A DNA stretch of 64,000 bases. It comes from Herbidospora cretacea. Lineage in GTDB: Bacteria; Actinomycetota; Actinomycetes; Streptosporangiales; Streptosporangiaceae. Numbering within the stretch: position 1 is the stretch's first letter; every line of letters begins with the position of its first letter. A program made the translations under genes and the position numbers. This document shows positions 19,699 through 35,388 of this stretch, one piece after another. Location of the stretch: NCBI RefSeq assembly GCF_001570605.1, contig NZ_BBXG01000017.1, positions 62,001 through 126,000 of the forward strand. The letters run 5' to 3'. The notes beneath the pieces are model-generated. The model saw nothing but the letters and a program-made list of their open reading frames with translations. It made no database searches and was not told the DNA's origin.

Positions 19699-20745
19699 CT
19701 ACACGGCGACCGACTCCCCGGCCAGGTCGCCGGCCGGGGTGCGGCCGAGCAGCGGCGCGAAGTCACGCATGATCTTGGCGAGTTCCGCCAGGTCGCCGTC
19801 GACGAGGGCCTGGGGGCCGTCGCAGAGGGCCTGCTCGGGGTGCGGGTGGACGTCGATGATCACGCCGTCGGCCCCGACCGCGACGGCCGCCCGGGTGAGC
19901 GGCAGCACCAGGTCGCGCCGCCCGCCGGAGTGGGACGGGTCGATGATCACCGGCAGGTGGGAGAGCCGCTGCGCCACCGGCACCGCCGACACGTCGAGGG
20001 TGTTGCGGGTCGCCGTCTCGAAGGTCCGGATGCCCCGCTCGCACAGCACGATGTCGAGGTTGCCGCGCTGGGCGATGTACTCGGCCGACATCAGCCACTC
20101 CTCGATGGTCCCGCTCATGCCGCGCTTCAGCATGACCGGCTTCCCGGCCGCGCCGACCGCCTGGAGCAGCGCGAAGTTCTGCGTGTTGCGGGTGCCGACC
20201 TGGAGCATGTCCGCGTACGACGCCACCAGCGGCACGTCGTGGGCGTCGACCACCTCGGTCACGATCGGCAGCCCGGTCTTCTCCCGCACGTCGGCCAGGA
20301 TGCGCAGGCCCTGCTCGCCGAGGCCCTGGAAGGCGTAGGGCGAGGTGCGCGGCTTGAACGCGCCGCCGCGCAGCAGGGTGGCCCCGGCGGCCTTGGCCAT
20401 CTGGGCGGCCTCAAGCGTCTGCTGCGGCGTCTCGACCGCGCACGGTCCTGCGATGAGGGTGACCGTGTCGGGCCCGATCGGGACACCGCCCACTCTCACC
20501 GTCGACCGGTCGGGATGGTTGTCCCGGCTCACCAGCTTGAAGGGCGTGGACACGCGCATGACGTCGGCGACGCCGCGCTGGCCGCGCAGGTTCAGGCTGG
20601 CGAACTGCTCGACGTCGCCGATCAGCCCGATGATCGTGCGATTCACTCCGCGGGACACGAACGCCTCACCGCCCGCCGCCGCGACCAGCGCGACGACCTC
20701 GGTGATGTCTTCCTGGGTGGCCTCCGGGGCCATGACGATGACCAT
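19699..20745 (-). CDS. aroF: 3-deoxy-7-phosphoheptulonate synthase, type I beta
   Basis: A 348-residue DAHP synthase catalysing the first step of aromatic amino acid synthesis from PEP and erythrose 4-phosphate. An N-terminal ferredoxin-like regulatory domain (residues 1-85) precedes the barrel. The barrel shows IAGPCAVET, LRGGAFKPRTSPYAFQG, GTRNTQNFALL, VMLKRGMSGTIEEW, CERGIRTF and IIDPSHSGG. This is the Thermotoga/Bacillus-like I-beta form, not the class II AroH form common in actinomycetes. AAGGAG lies 5 bases before the ATG. A strong hairpin and an aromatic-rich leader peptide lie directly upstream, pointing to transcription attenuation. Confidence 0.94.
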   Translation of the reverse strand: MVIVMAPEATQEDITEVVALVAAAGGEAFVSRGVNRTIIGLIGDVEQFASLNLRGQRGVADVMRVSTPFKLVSRDNHPDRSTVRVGGVPIGPDTVTLIAGPCAVETPQQTLEAAQMAKAAGATLLRGGAFKPRTSPYAFQGLGEQGLRILADVREKTGLPIVTEVVDAHDVPLVASYADMLQVGTRNTQNFALLQAVGAAGKPVMLKRGMSGTIEEWLMSAEYIAQRGNLDIVLCERGIRTFETATRNTLDVSAVPVAQRLSHLPVIIDPSHSGGRRDLVLPLTRAAVAVGADGVIIDVHPHPEQALCDGPQALVDGDLAELAKIMRDFAPLLGRTPAGDLAGESVAV

Positions 20746-20762
20746 TTCTTCTCCTTAACATG

Positions 20763-20802
20763 CGAAAAGCCCCGGGTCCTGTATCGGACCCGGGGCTTTT
20801 CG
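20763..20802 (-). terminator. Leader terminator/attenuator hairpin before aroF
   Basis: A perfect 17-bp stem (arms 20763-20779 and 20786-20802) with a 6-base loop. The transcribed strand ends GGGGCUUUUCG. It lies 14 bases after the leader peptide stop and 17 bases before the aroF ATG. No other gene could use it as a normal 3' terminator, so a regulatory role is likely. Confidence 0.8.
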
Positions 20803-20816
20803 ATCGCCTGTGGCTG

Positions 20817-20888
20817 CTAGCGCAGAACCATATGGCGAGCGGTCCTCACGGGTCCGTCGCCATACCAAAACAGGAATGCGCCAAGCAT
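20817..20888 (-). CDS. Leader peptide with Phe-Leu-Phe-Trp-Tyr run (aroF attenuator)
   Basis: A 23-codon frame, ATG at 20888 to TAG at 20817-20819. Residues 5-9 are FLFWY, so Phe, Trp and Tyr, the three end products of the pathway, are read consecutively. The peptide ends with HMVLR. The coding RNA can fold on itself: TATGGCGA (transcript of 20857-20864) pairs with TCGCCATA (20831-20838). Its CGGACCCG (transcript of 20849-20856) is exactly complementary to CGGGTCCG in the first arm of the downstream terminator (20785-20792). No Shine-Dalgarno sequence is seen, but a TATATT box 6 bases upstream suggests a leaderless transcript. Function is inferred from these features. Confidence 0.72.
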   Translation of the reverse strand: MLGAFLFWYGDGPVRTARHMVLR

Positions 20889-20894
20889 GGTCGA

Positions 20895-20900
20895 AATATA
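20895..20900 (-). promoter_or_regulatory. -10 element of the aroF leader transcript
   Basis: TATATT on the minus strand ends 6 bases before the leader peptide ATG. With the usual spacing, transcription would begin at or beside the A of that ATG. No good -35 hexamer is visible in the GC-rich DNA upstream. Confidence 0.5.
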
Positions 20901-20951: not shown

Positions 20952-21563
20952 GTGCCGGAGACGTCCGAGGAGGAGAACCGGCTGCCCCCGGGTCAGTACG
21001 TCCCGCGCGGCAGGCCCGTGATGCACTACGGCAGGGTCCCGGCGTTCCGCCCGGCGACCTGGCGCCTCCAGGTGTTCGGCGCGACCGCGTCCGGGGAGCA
21101 GCACTTCCTGAGCTACGACGAGTTCGGCGACCTGCCCCGGGCGACGGTGCTGTCCGACGTCCACTGCGTCACCAAGTTCTCGATCATGGGCAACGAGTGG
21201 ACCGGCGTGCCCGCCCGCGCGCTGCTGGCCGCCGTGCCGCCCGCTCCCGGGGTCGGCCACGTGATGATCTGGGCCGAATACGGCTACAGCGCCAACGTCC
21301 GGATGAGCGACTTCGACCGCGAGTCGACGCTGTTCGCGACCGAGCTCGACGGCAAGCCGCTGAGCCCCGAGCGCGGTTTCCCGGTCCGCGCCGTGGTCCC
21401 GCACCTCTACGCGTGGAAGAGCGTGAAGTGGGTGCGCGCCATCGAATACCTGACCGAGGACCGGCGCGGCTTCTGGGAGGACCGGGGCTACCACAACGTC
21501 GCCGACCCCTGGCGTGAGCAGCGCTACTCATACCAGGAGGAGCCGGGCGAGGGCCCGCCGTAG
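20952..21563 (+). CDS. Sulfite-oxidase-like molybdopterin-dependent oxidoreductase
   Basis: A 203-residue protein from a GTG at 20952. It matches the molybdopterin-binding domain of the sulfite oxidase/YedY family: TWRLQVFGATASG, then LPRATVLSDVHCVTKFSIMGNEWTGV with the Cys ligand to molybdenum, HVMIWAEYGYSANVRM, GFPVRAVVPHLYAWKSVKWVRAIEYL and GFWEDRGYHN. There is no signal peptide and no haem or dimerisation domain, so this is a short cytoplasmic type of unknown substrate. It diverges from the aroF leader. Confidence 0.87.
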   Translation: MPETSEEENRLPPGQYVPRGRPVMHYGRVPAFRPATWRLQVFGATASGEQHFLSYDEFGDLPRATVLSDVHCVTKFSIMGNEWTGVPARALLAAVPPAPGVGHVMIWAEYGYSANVRMSDFDRESTLFATELDGKPLSPERGFPVRAVVPHLYAWKSVKWVRAIEYLTEDRRGFWEDRGYHNVADPWREQRYSYQEEPGEGPP

Positions 21564-34114: not shown

Positions 34115-35161
34115 TCAGATCCTCGCCGGAGAGCATTCGGGCATGAGATCGGCCTCGTCGAACAGGCCCGCGACGACGGCCTCGGCCGTCAGCGGCGCGA
34201 GCAGCACGCCCGCGCGGTGGTGGCCCGCCGCCACCCACACGTCGCGGTGTCTCCCCACGTAGGGGAGGTTGTCGGGGGTGCCGGGCCGCAGCCCCGCGAA
34301 GGTCTCGGCCAGGTCGAGCTCGGTGATCCCCGGGACGAGTTCGCGCGCGTCCCGCAGCAGCTCGTAGACCCCTCCGGCGGTGACCCGGGTGTCGAACCCG
34401 AGCTCCTCCATCGTCGCGCCGACCACGATCTCGCCGTCGTCGCGGGGGACCAGGTAGACGTCGGAGCCGCGCACCTTGCCGCGTACGCACCTCTGGAGCA
34501 GGCCGCGCGGGCCCCGCAGCCGCAGGATCTGGCCCTTCACCGGCCGGACGGGCAGCTCCGGGAGCAGGCTCGGGGTCCAGGCCCCGGCGGCGACCACGAC
34601 GTGACCGGCCCGCAGGTCGCCGAGGTCGGTGACGCGCTCCCTGACGATCCTCCCGCCCGCGTTCTGGAACGCCTGCTGGAGGGCCTGGGTCACCCGGCGC
34701 GGGTTCACCCACAGGTCGTCGCGGGCCAGCAGCCCGCCCCGCACGTTGGGCGACAGCATCGGCTCGGCCTGGCGGCACTGCCGCCCGGTCAGCCGCTCCA
34801 CCCGCAGCCCGAGCTTCTCCTCGAACGCGGCCAGCTCGTCGAGCTGCGCGAGGTCGTCGGCGTCGTAGGCGACCTCGACGGTCCCGTCGGAACGGAGGTC
34901 GACCGGGACGCCGCTCGCCTGTTCCAGTTCGGCCGCGAACCGCGGCCAGCGCTCCAGCGAGGCCAGGCCCAGCCGCAGCAGCGGCTCCTCGGTGTAGGTG
35001 ACCTCGCTGACCGGGGCGAGCATGCCCGCCGAGGCGCGCGTCGCCCGCGAGCCGGGATCGGGGTCGGCCAGCGTGACGGTGAGGCCCCGCGTGGCGGCCC
35101 TCCAGGCGATCGACAGCCCGGCTATGCCGCCGCCGATCACGAAAACGTCCGAAGCGTTCAT
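34115..35161 (-). CDS. thiO: Glycine oxidase ThiO
   Basis: A 348-residue FAD-dependent D-amino acid oxidase-family protein. The dinucleotide loop is VIGGGIAGLSIAWRAATRG. Further motifs are RATRASAGMLAPVSE and the C-terminal LRPGTPDNLPYVGRHRDVWVAAGHHRAGVLLAP. It oxidises glycine to the imine used by ThiG. It is the first gene behind the TPP riboswitch, with its ribosome binding site AAGGGAG inside the riboswitch 3' end. Confidence 0.94.
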   Translation of the reverse strand: MNASDVFVIGGGIAGLSIAWRAATRGLTVTLADPDPGSRATRASAGMLAPVSEVTYTEEPLLRLGLASLERWPRFAAELEQASGVPVDLRSDGTVEVAYDADDLAQLDELAAFEEKLGLRVERLTGRQCRQAEPMLSPNVRGGLLARDDLWVNPRRVTQALQQAFQNAGGRIVRERVTDLGDLRAGHVVVAAGAWTPSLLPELPVRPVKGQILRLRGPRGLLQRCVRGKVRGSDVYLVPRDDGEIVVGATMEELGFDTRVTAGGVYELLRDARELVPGITELDLAETFAGLRPGTPDNLPYVGRHRDVWVAAGHHRAGVLLAPLTAEAVVAGLFDEADLMPECSPARI

Positions 35162-35165
35162 CGCG

Positions 35166-35257
35166 CTCCCTTCGCCGGCATGATCCGGATCAGGTTCGAT
35201 AGCGGTCGGGAACCTGTGGAGTTCCCCTCTCAGCCCGGTCAGCCGGACTCCCGCGCG
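35166..35257 (-). ncRNA. TPP riboswitch (THI element)
   Basis: On the minus strand the element shows the conserved core pieces GGCTGACCGGGCTGAGAGG, GAACCTGATCCGGATCATG and CCGGCGAAGGGA, in that order. It lies immediately upstream of thiO, only about 4 bases before its ATG. The terminal P1 strand contains the Shine-Dalgarno sequence, so TPP binding should hide it and stop translation. No separate terminator stem is seen. Confidence 0.93.
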
Positions 35258-35388
35258 TCTTTGTCCAGAGTAATGCGAATTGATCGGATTCGCACAACAC
35301 GGAACCGTCCCACTGTGCGAGCTACTTACTCAATTCGTTACCGAATCTCCATTGGCGAGTGGGCCCGTCGGCAATCTAGGGTCTACTC

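Follow-up and report, generated by a model that had tools for sequence, protein, structure and literature searches.

The aroF gene of Herbidospora cretacea, carried on the 64,000-nucleotide stretch of DNA analyzed here (contig NZ_BBXG01000017.1, positions 62,001 to 126,000; hereafter the window), is very probably controlled by a ribosome-mediated transcription attenuator, in which the supply of charged tRNA for phenylalanine, tryptophan, and tyrosine sets transcription of the gene, as judged from the comparison of sequences. The parts of this unit, their conservation, the reading frame of the leader peptide, an antiterminator with covarying strands, and the position of the aromatic codons relative to the switch are established by the analysis, and the attenuator interpretation put forward by a first-pass annotation of the window is supported overall. 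The kind of control is already known from trpL, pheL, and the aroR leader of Corynebacterium glutamicum; what is new is a sensor of three amino acids, its association with a type I-beta enzyme, a composite antiterminator, and a sister version on chorismate mutase.

Organization of the aroF leader

The elements of the unit all lie on the minus strand. A −10 box (TATATT, 20895..20900) ends 6 nt before the ATG of a leader peptide gene of 23 codons and a stop (20817..20888; ATG at 20888, TAG at 20817) that encodes MLGAFLFWYGDGPVRTARHMVLR, and residues 5–9 of this peptide are specified by TTC CTG TTT TGG TAT (Phe-Leu-Phe-Trp-Tyr, 20862..20876), with TTT TGG TAT as the core. The end of the control codons runs into segment 1 (TATGGCGA, 20857..20864), the 5′ strand of a hairpin (1:2) in the predicted fold, whose complement TCGCCATA forms segment 2b (20831..20838). 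Between them lies segment 2a (CGGACCCG, 20849..20856), the 5′ strand of the antiterminator, whose complement CGGGTCCG (20785..20792) is at the top of the 5′ arm of the terminator, an assignment that rests on covariation. On the evidence of a helix energy test, segment 2b may alternatively pair through its TCGCC with a GGCGA located between stop codon and terminator (20804..20808), which would be the 3′ strand of a second antiterminator helix.

The stop codon is followed by a 14-nt spacer and then by an intrinsic terminator with a perfect 17-bp stem and a 6-nt loop, GATACA (20763..20802), evident in both sequence and fold. The stem carries T runs on both strands and is trailed by CTTTTCG, a short U run. 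Downstream are the ribosome-binding site AAGGAG (20751..20756) and aroF itself (19699..20745), encoding a type I-beta DAHP synthase of 348 aa with a ferredoxin-like regulatory domain; the product scores over the cut-offs for NCBIfam TIGR01361 and NF006421 and also matches Pfam PF00793 and PF18152. This layout bears out the first-pass description of a 23-codon frame with FLFWY at residues 5–9 directly before aroF and of a perfect 17-bp terminator 14 bases beyond it. The same holds for the claim that the terminator serves no upstream gene, since the next gene upstream, for an Oxidored_molyb protein (Pfam; 20952..21563, plus strand), is divergent.

The 126-nt leader folds with a predicted free energy of −72.5 kcal/mol (z −7.07), which none of 200 shuffled sequences equaled. 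A simple pattern scan listed neither the −10 box, because there is no matching −35 element, nor the terminator, because its tail rule needs five T; it reported another stem, of 5 pairs, upstream of the box (20918–20902). Across the whole window, only a TPP riboswitch elsewhere (RF00059, 59.5 bits, 35150–35264, minus strand) reached the gathering score of any of the 4227 Rfam families, and a permissive search of the leader region gave F6 at 28.2 bits (gathering score 46) and Thr_leader at 25.9 bits (gathering score 55), with others further off.

The aroF product shares 94–97% protein identity with its counterparts in six genomes of the same genus, the top named matches being H. galbida and H. 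yilanensis (97%). It is the sole strong type I match in its own genome, where the second match has an E value of 9e-4. A single type II DAHP synthase gene is present elsewhere in that genome, and the 330 nt upstream of it hold no frame in which three aromatic residues fall within a span of six; the upstream stretch examined for the genome's CM_2 match likewise holds no aromatic leader.

Conservation within the family

Searches of 120 sampled genomes from the GTDB family of Herbidospora located aroF in 117, a part of which were fetched, and the collection of 113 aroF-type upstream regions (the window, six from the same genus, 26 loci, and 80 further stretches) spans 111 genomes and 64 genera. 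A script that looked for a short aromatic frame followed by a terminator recovered the unit in 106 of these regions. An RNA model, R1, built on 76 leaders (73 within the 113-region set and three outside it), added four that the script had missed (L146, L158, L174, and L184, the last truncated by a contig end). With these four, leader and terminator are accounted for in 110 of the 113 regions; the tally by genome is 110 of 111 and by genus 63 of 64, and the conservation of a short aromatic frame in relatives that the first-pass annotation had proposed as a check was found, with frame, terminator, and competing pairing in those 63 genera. When R1 was run class-wide on 394 genomes, 41 family genomes matched, 40 of them with at least 80 bits, and 35 of these 40 matches adjoin aroF by coordinates; the exception below 80 bits is a genome (G021) with no aroF match.

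The three regions without a leader are L179 (G119) and two second copies of aroF, L161 (G076) and L168 (G037), which have perhaps been freed from amino acid control. Second copies of aroF, with 74–78% identity, occur in several genomes of the family (G076, G037, G110, G084, and G033). In one member of the genus (L008 in G003) the DNA upstream of the −10 box is, by eye, unlike that of its sister species, with leader and aroF conserved; the upstream neighborhood seems to have been replaced, and the change marks the 5′ edge of the unit.

Not every codon of the predicted sensor is conserved. Residues 5 and 6 of the leader peptide are FL in the window, and the six sister genomes have LS, IS, VS, or FS there, so that the five-codon run FLFWY was rejected as the conserved signal. 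What stands of the proposed five-codon sensor is its core, Phe-Trp-Tyr, encoded by TTT TGG TAT. The C-terminal half of the peptide is likewise conserved (e.g., RTVRxQxLR). The terminator lies 17 nt from aroF in the window and 17–108 nt from it among genuine leaders.

Probable translation and codon content of the leader

Evidence that the short frame is translated comes from its spacing. In all 76 aligned leaders, the CCC of the pairing element lies a multiple of three nucleotides from the start codon, at six distances between 30 and 45, and the spacer from stop codon to terminator occurs in all three phases (30, 21, and 25 leaders). On these frame distances, the locus has the short leader frame upstream of a structural gene that an attenuator calls for. 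In 61 of 76 leaders a TANNNT box stands 6–7 nt ahead of the start, compared to 1 of 1386 other ATG or GTG codons in the same upstream regions, a contrast that is somewhat inflated because the leader starts were chosen partly by a TANNNT at 5–8 nt. The mRNA of the leader peptide is probably leaderless, with a −10 box at a fixed distance, and the suggestion of a leaderless start drawn from the TATATT box alone is consistent with this pattern.

Of 97 distinct family peptides, 93 have phenylalanine, tryptophan, and tyrosine among their first 15 residues, and phenylalanine and tyrosine are found in all 97. The codons themselves are unusual for these genes: the 98 distinct leaders contain TTT 122 times and TTC 65 times, compared to 0 and 215 in 33 aroF coding regions, and TAT 93 times and TAC 51 times, compared to 1 and 143. 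Part of this enrichment may reflect constraint on the RNA, given the relatedness of the leaders and the location of TAT in a stem; the TTT codon sits outside the stem that holds TAT. The use of rare codons in leaders is an early proposal that has been labeled an oversimplification (in a part of PMC1183508).

Competing RNA pairings

The pairing of CGGACCCG with CGGGTCCG (helix a) is kept in 91.6% of cells over six pairs and shows both-sided changes in four of the six, counts that are inflated by the relatedness of the sequences. Its covariation score of 0.195, compared to 0.121 for shuffled alignments, was reached by none of 500 shuffles, and sliding the partners by 1–3 columns reduced pairing to 7–59%. 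Extended to eight pairs, the value is 0.843, and 2000 permutations averaged 0.776 and peaked at 0.807; the outermost pairs fail often, the eighth forming in 38 of 76 leaders. A clear case is L133, in which the leader has CCGGTCCG opposite CGGACCG. Most of the double changes reduce to two main types, GGACCC/GGGTCC and CGGCCC/GGGCCG, which makes the number of independent events smaller than the number of cells. Covariation backs this predicted antiterminator, whose formation would exclude the terminator, and the intrinsic terminator between leader and aroF is itself conserved as a predicted stem, of 17 bp in the window.

A further helix (b), which was not part of the first-pass prediction, extends the antiterminator by pairing RNA from the 3′ half of the leader frame with the spacer that separates stop codon and terminator. 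Its mean energy is −14.26 kcal/mol, compared to −11.03 when shuffled and −12.26 when strands are swapped between species, and it beats the shuffled mean in 66 of 76 leaders (mean z −1.31). Examples include GTTCGCC/GGCGAAC, GGTCTG/CAGACC, and GCGGCTGCC/GGCAACCGC.

Family support for the upstream hairpin 1:2 is weak. The 8-bp stem TATGGCGA/TCGCCATA is predicted in the fold of the window, and across the family hairpin 1:2 has a mean of −10.95, compared to −9.06 shuffled and −10.65 swapped, beating the shuffled mean in 66 of 76. By eye, the outer pairs of the stem are lost in relatives, with mainly GGCGA/TCGCC retained, and L114 folds best into another hairpin. Of the two competing pairings proposed from the window alone, and of the compensatory changes anticipated in both stems, the antiterminator half is thus upheld by covariation and the upstream hairpin is less well supported, given the small difference between real and swapped energies.

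The consequence of ribosome position was simulated with the 3′ arm of the terminator not yet made and a distance of 12 nt between the ribosome edge and the A site, pairing being expressed in relative units. Mean antiterminator pairing is 1.01–1.17 with the A site 1–6 codons before the last aromatic codon, 0.67 with the A site on that codon, and 0.14–0.31 at 3–9 codons past it, rising again from 10 codons past. Ribosome edges of 10 and 14 nt move the fall by about one codon, and folding only the RNA downstream of the ribosome reproduces it (0.86 to 0.63, with a floor near 0.5). Two results run contrary to the simple model: pairing is high with no ribosome at all (0.85, or 0.81 in the downstream-only fold), and it is 1.06–1.08 at the stop codon when upstream RNA is allowed to take part. 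With these values, the off state would have to rest on folding kinetics, hairpin 1:2 being formed early, and on a terminator that is much the more stable structure. Tyrosine may be sensed weakly, because its codon comes last in the cluster and a stall there already makes part of the antiterminator strand inaccessible (0.67).

Proposed mechanism

From these parts we infer a start site, premature termination, stalling, and induction. RNA polymerase would initiate at or beside the ATG of the leader and a ribosome would load on the leaderless end. When the aromatic amino acids are ample, the ribosome would clear TTT TGG TAT, and behind it hairpin 1:2 (GGCGA with TCGCC) could form, concealing CGGACCCG in its loop; with that strand concealed, the terminator would halt transcription ahead of aroF. 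Should any one of the three charged tRNAs become scarce, the ribosome would be expected to stall on the control codons and cover strand 1, leaving CGGACCCG and the TCGCC that follows it available to their downstream partners, CGGGTCCG and GGCGA. The antiterminator so formed would block the terminator and aroF would be transcribed. In these bacteria the aromatic pathway is probably induced by a mechanism that senses the end products.

Alternative explanations

Terminators in 5′ leaders can be controlled in several ways, and stalling at this locus is a prediction, so it is conceivable that a protein or small molecule controls the hairpins and that the short frame is translated only to time the polymerase. 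Such a switch would leave unexplained why the aromatic codons are fixed before the pairing element at distances that are multiples of three and why the codon content matches the end products of the enzyme; with no Rfam family near its gathering score at the leader, we regard it as improbable. Slightly less probable again is control of translation, in which a stalled ribosome would free or hide the ribosome-binding site of aroF. The terminator of the window ends only 17 nt before aroF, so the structure could reach the start region, but among genuine leaders that distance extends to 108 nt, and the covarying partner is an arm of the terminator and not AAGGAG.

Two further readings are the least likely, and both carry very little weight. 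The T runs on both strands mean that the stem could end transcription from either side, as would a plain terminator of antisense or divergent transcription that stands beside an accidental short frame; this is, in our view, refuted by conservation, with leader and terminator together in 110 of 113 family copies, and the −10 box is found at only 1 of 1386 other start codons. The conserved C-terminal half of the peptide (RTVRxQxLR) could point to a functional small protein, but the strands that build hairpin 1:2 and the second antiterminator helix come from the same nucleotides, and no match was found for five leader peptides in NCBIfam or for the peptide of the window in Pfam. The ribosome-mediated attenuator therefore remains the preferred reading.

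Leaders of similar design across the class

Outside the family, the leader is more often absent than present. aroF was detected in 103 of 296 class genomes searched, 76 of which lie outside the Herbidospora family, and among 59 upstream regions drawn from these 76 genomes an aromatic leader was found in 26: 18 of 57 by script and reading, six (L292, L295, L298, L305, L311, and L313) by R1 and a second reading, and two (L235 and L250) by the class-wide search. R1 applied to the 39 script-negative regions (51526 bases) returned ten rows from six loci; one candidate, L329, was discarded for want of the box. Among the first 20 non-family leaders, 13 carry tryptophan by residue 15 (in MQRQFYGVGDAPGW it comes after the cluster), as do two of the six later ones (L295 and L305). 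The tryptophan rule is loose outside the family, as leaders without it include MRTTYFFGHLPGAP-like and MRNRFFSYGDAP-like peptides.

The class-wide search also yielded full-length R1 matches of up to 58.7 bits in another family (f18), and those examined sit before a chorismate mutase gene of about 95 aa, with leaders such as MLTQTTFLFTYGNRPTGCHGRAA. The enzyme used as query (P0001) is over the cut-offs for NF005894 and TIGR01808 and matches CM_2. The f18 genus g85 is, from sequence matches, probably Streptomyces: the TrpL1 peptide pattern of S. lividans has an exact match in all five g85 genomes tested and none in the genome of the window. A search with P0001 in 246 class genomes gave matches at 75 places in 71 genomes, and 70 of these places, the 30 best and 40 more, were surveyed. 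Leaders were present at 28 of the 30 best (25 by script; L345, L348, and L353 by eye), including all 21 g85 regions, and absent at L357 and L360. A further 15 were found among the other 40, mostly of an FFYGYR type (e.g., MLNAQRRFFYGYRPAVPVV, family f4); in this set L373 is cut by a contig end and L371 was left out of the count. In total, 43 of 70 chorismate mutase regions examined have a Phe/Tyr leader of the same design, and most of the places in family f17 have none by scan.

The 45 distinct chorismate mutase leader peptides (those at the 43 regions plus L232 and L243) all hold phenylalanine and tyrosine. Tryptophan appears in the first 15 residues of only four of them, and in one of the four it is inside the aromatic cluster, compared to 93 of 97 family aroF leaders (Fisher p 2e-26, relatedness ignored). 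Codon content follows the enzyme, since chorismate mutase leads to phenylalanine and tyrosine and not to tryptophan; in both the family aroF and the chorismate mutase leaders, the codons for the end products of the enzyme form a cluster. For six genomes both an aroF and a chorismate mutase region were in hand, and none of them has the leader on both. In G142, G204, G215, and G271 it precedes chorismate mutase only, as if the control point had moved, and in G133 and G262 it was detected by scan on neither.

On balance we favor the view that a single attenuator design provides aromatic amino acid control in a large part of the class Actinomycetes, placed either on aroF (phenylalanine, tyrosine, and mostly tryptophan) or on chorismate mutase (phenylalanine and tyrosine), with codons that suit the branch point and tuned by TTT and TAT, which are rare in aroF. 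For the Herbidospora family this offers a testable regulatory switch for the entry of carbon into the aromatic amino acids, one that, through the chorismate mutase version, probably extends to Streptomyces, and both are groups that make many antibiotics out of aromatic precursors. With a three-amino-acid leader and a two-amino-acid sister, nature provides a comparison for learning how an attenuator combines multiple signals. The leaders also add a family that Rfam lacks, and NCBIfam likewise has no match for the five peptides tried.

Comparison with known systems

In Escherichia coli, pheL reads phenylalanine codons before the chorismate mutase gene pheA, and both ilvL and thrL read codons for at least two amino acids; we know of no E. 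coli leader of this kind that combines phenylalanine, tryptophan, and tyrosine. The chorismate mutase leaders described here resemble pheL in the position of phenylalanine codons before such a gene and are otherwise different leaders in different bacteria. The aroF of C. glutamicum is a type I-alpha enzyme, and its aroR leader is reportedly leaderless. Compared by description alone, aroR is without tryptophan and precedes the type I-alpha gene, whereas the Herbidospora leader reads tryptophan before a type I-beta gene; they have in common a leader peptide with aromatic codons, ribosome-mediated attenuation, and a position before an actinobacterial DAHP synthase gene. As described in parts of PMC7356990, PMC11802643, and PMC4046766, aroR is a Phe-Tyr-Phe leader before aroF (cg1129), credited to Neshat et al. 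in 2014, and a part of PMC11802643 gives a response to phenylalanine limitation with tyrosine having no effect. Because aroR reads Phe-Tyr-Phe, the first-pass statement that known actinobacterial attenuators of this kind read tryptophan runs does not hold. Leader replacement, done for aroR in C. glutamicum (in a part of PMC7356990), is a direct route to changed precursor supply.

The trpL/trpE and trpS attenuators of Corynebacterium and Streptomyces read only tryptophan (portions of PMC1262725 and PMC8079986); the aroF leader shares with them the short peptide, terminator, and antiterminator, and their transcripts in S. lividans are leaderless (a portion of PMC8079986). The same portion of PMC8079986 presents eight S. 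lividans leaders, none of those shown being located before chorismate mutase, and the word "chorismate" is absent from the main text of that paper; a section of PMC1262725 reports no conserved RNA structures before phenylalanine or tyrosine operons in Actinobacteria. There is no mention of aroF, aroG, or aroH in PMC2965389, of "chorismate" or "attenuat" in PMC8914203, or of "chorismate" or "DAHP" in PMC3765725, and among the matches listed from the open-licence PMC literature no title or abstract opening reports the present leader family. Leaders of aroF and aroH have been predicted in Shewanella (in a section of PMC2659441). The uORFC-13-1 motif (24 representatives, in a section of PMC8632094) lies before aroF of Acholeplasma and is similar in having a short upstream frame with at least one phenylalanine codon beside a terminator; it differs in belonging to another phylum, in having a ribosome-binding site, and in reading phenylalanine only.

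R1 also matches threonine leaders before thrS, their terminators being similar. In the family of the window and in others, a leader with threonine codons, typically of the form M(Q/K)RA..(T)TTTPE..PAR, and with a GCCCCGGGG-type terminator precedes the threonyl-tRNA synthetase gene (L238, L240–L242, L245–L247, L249, and L251; the L249 gene is over the cut-off for TIGR00418). The known analogue of these is the thrL of S. lividans, located before thrS (a portion of PMC8079986), which has the same general architecture as the aroF leader but with threonine codons and a tRNA synthetase gene.
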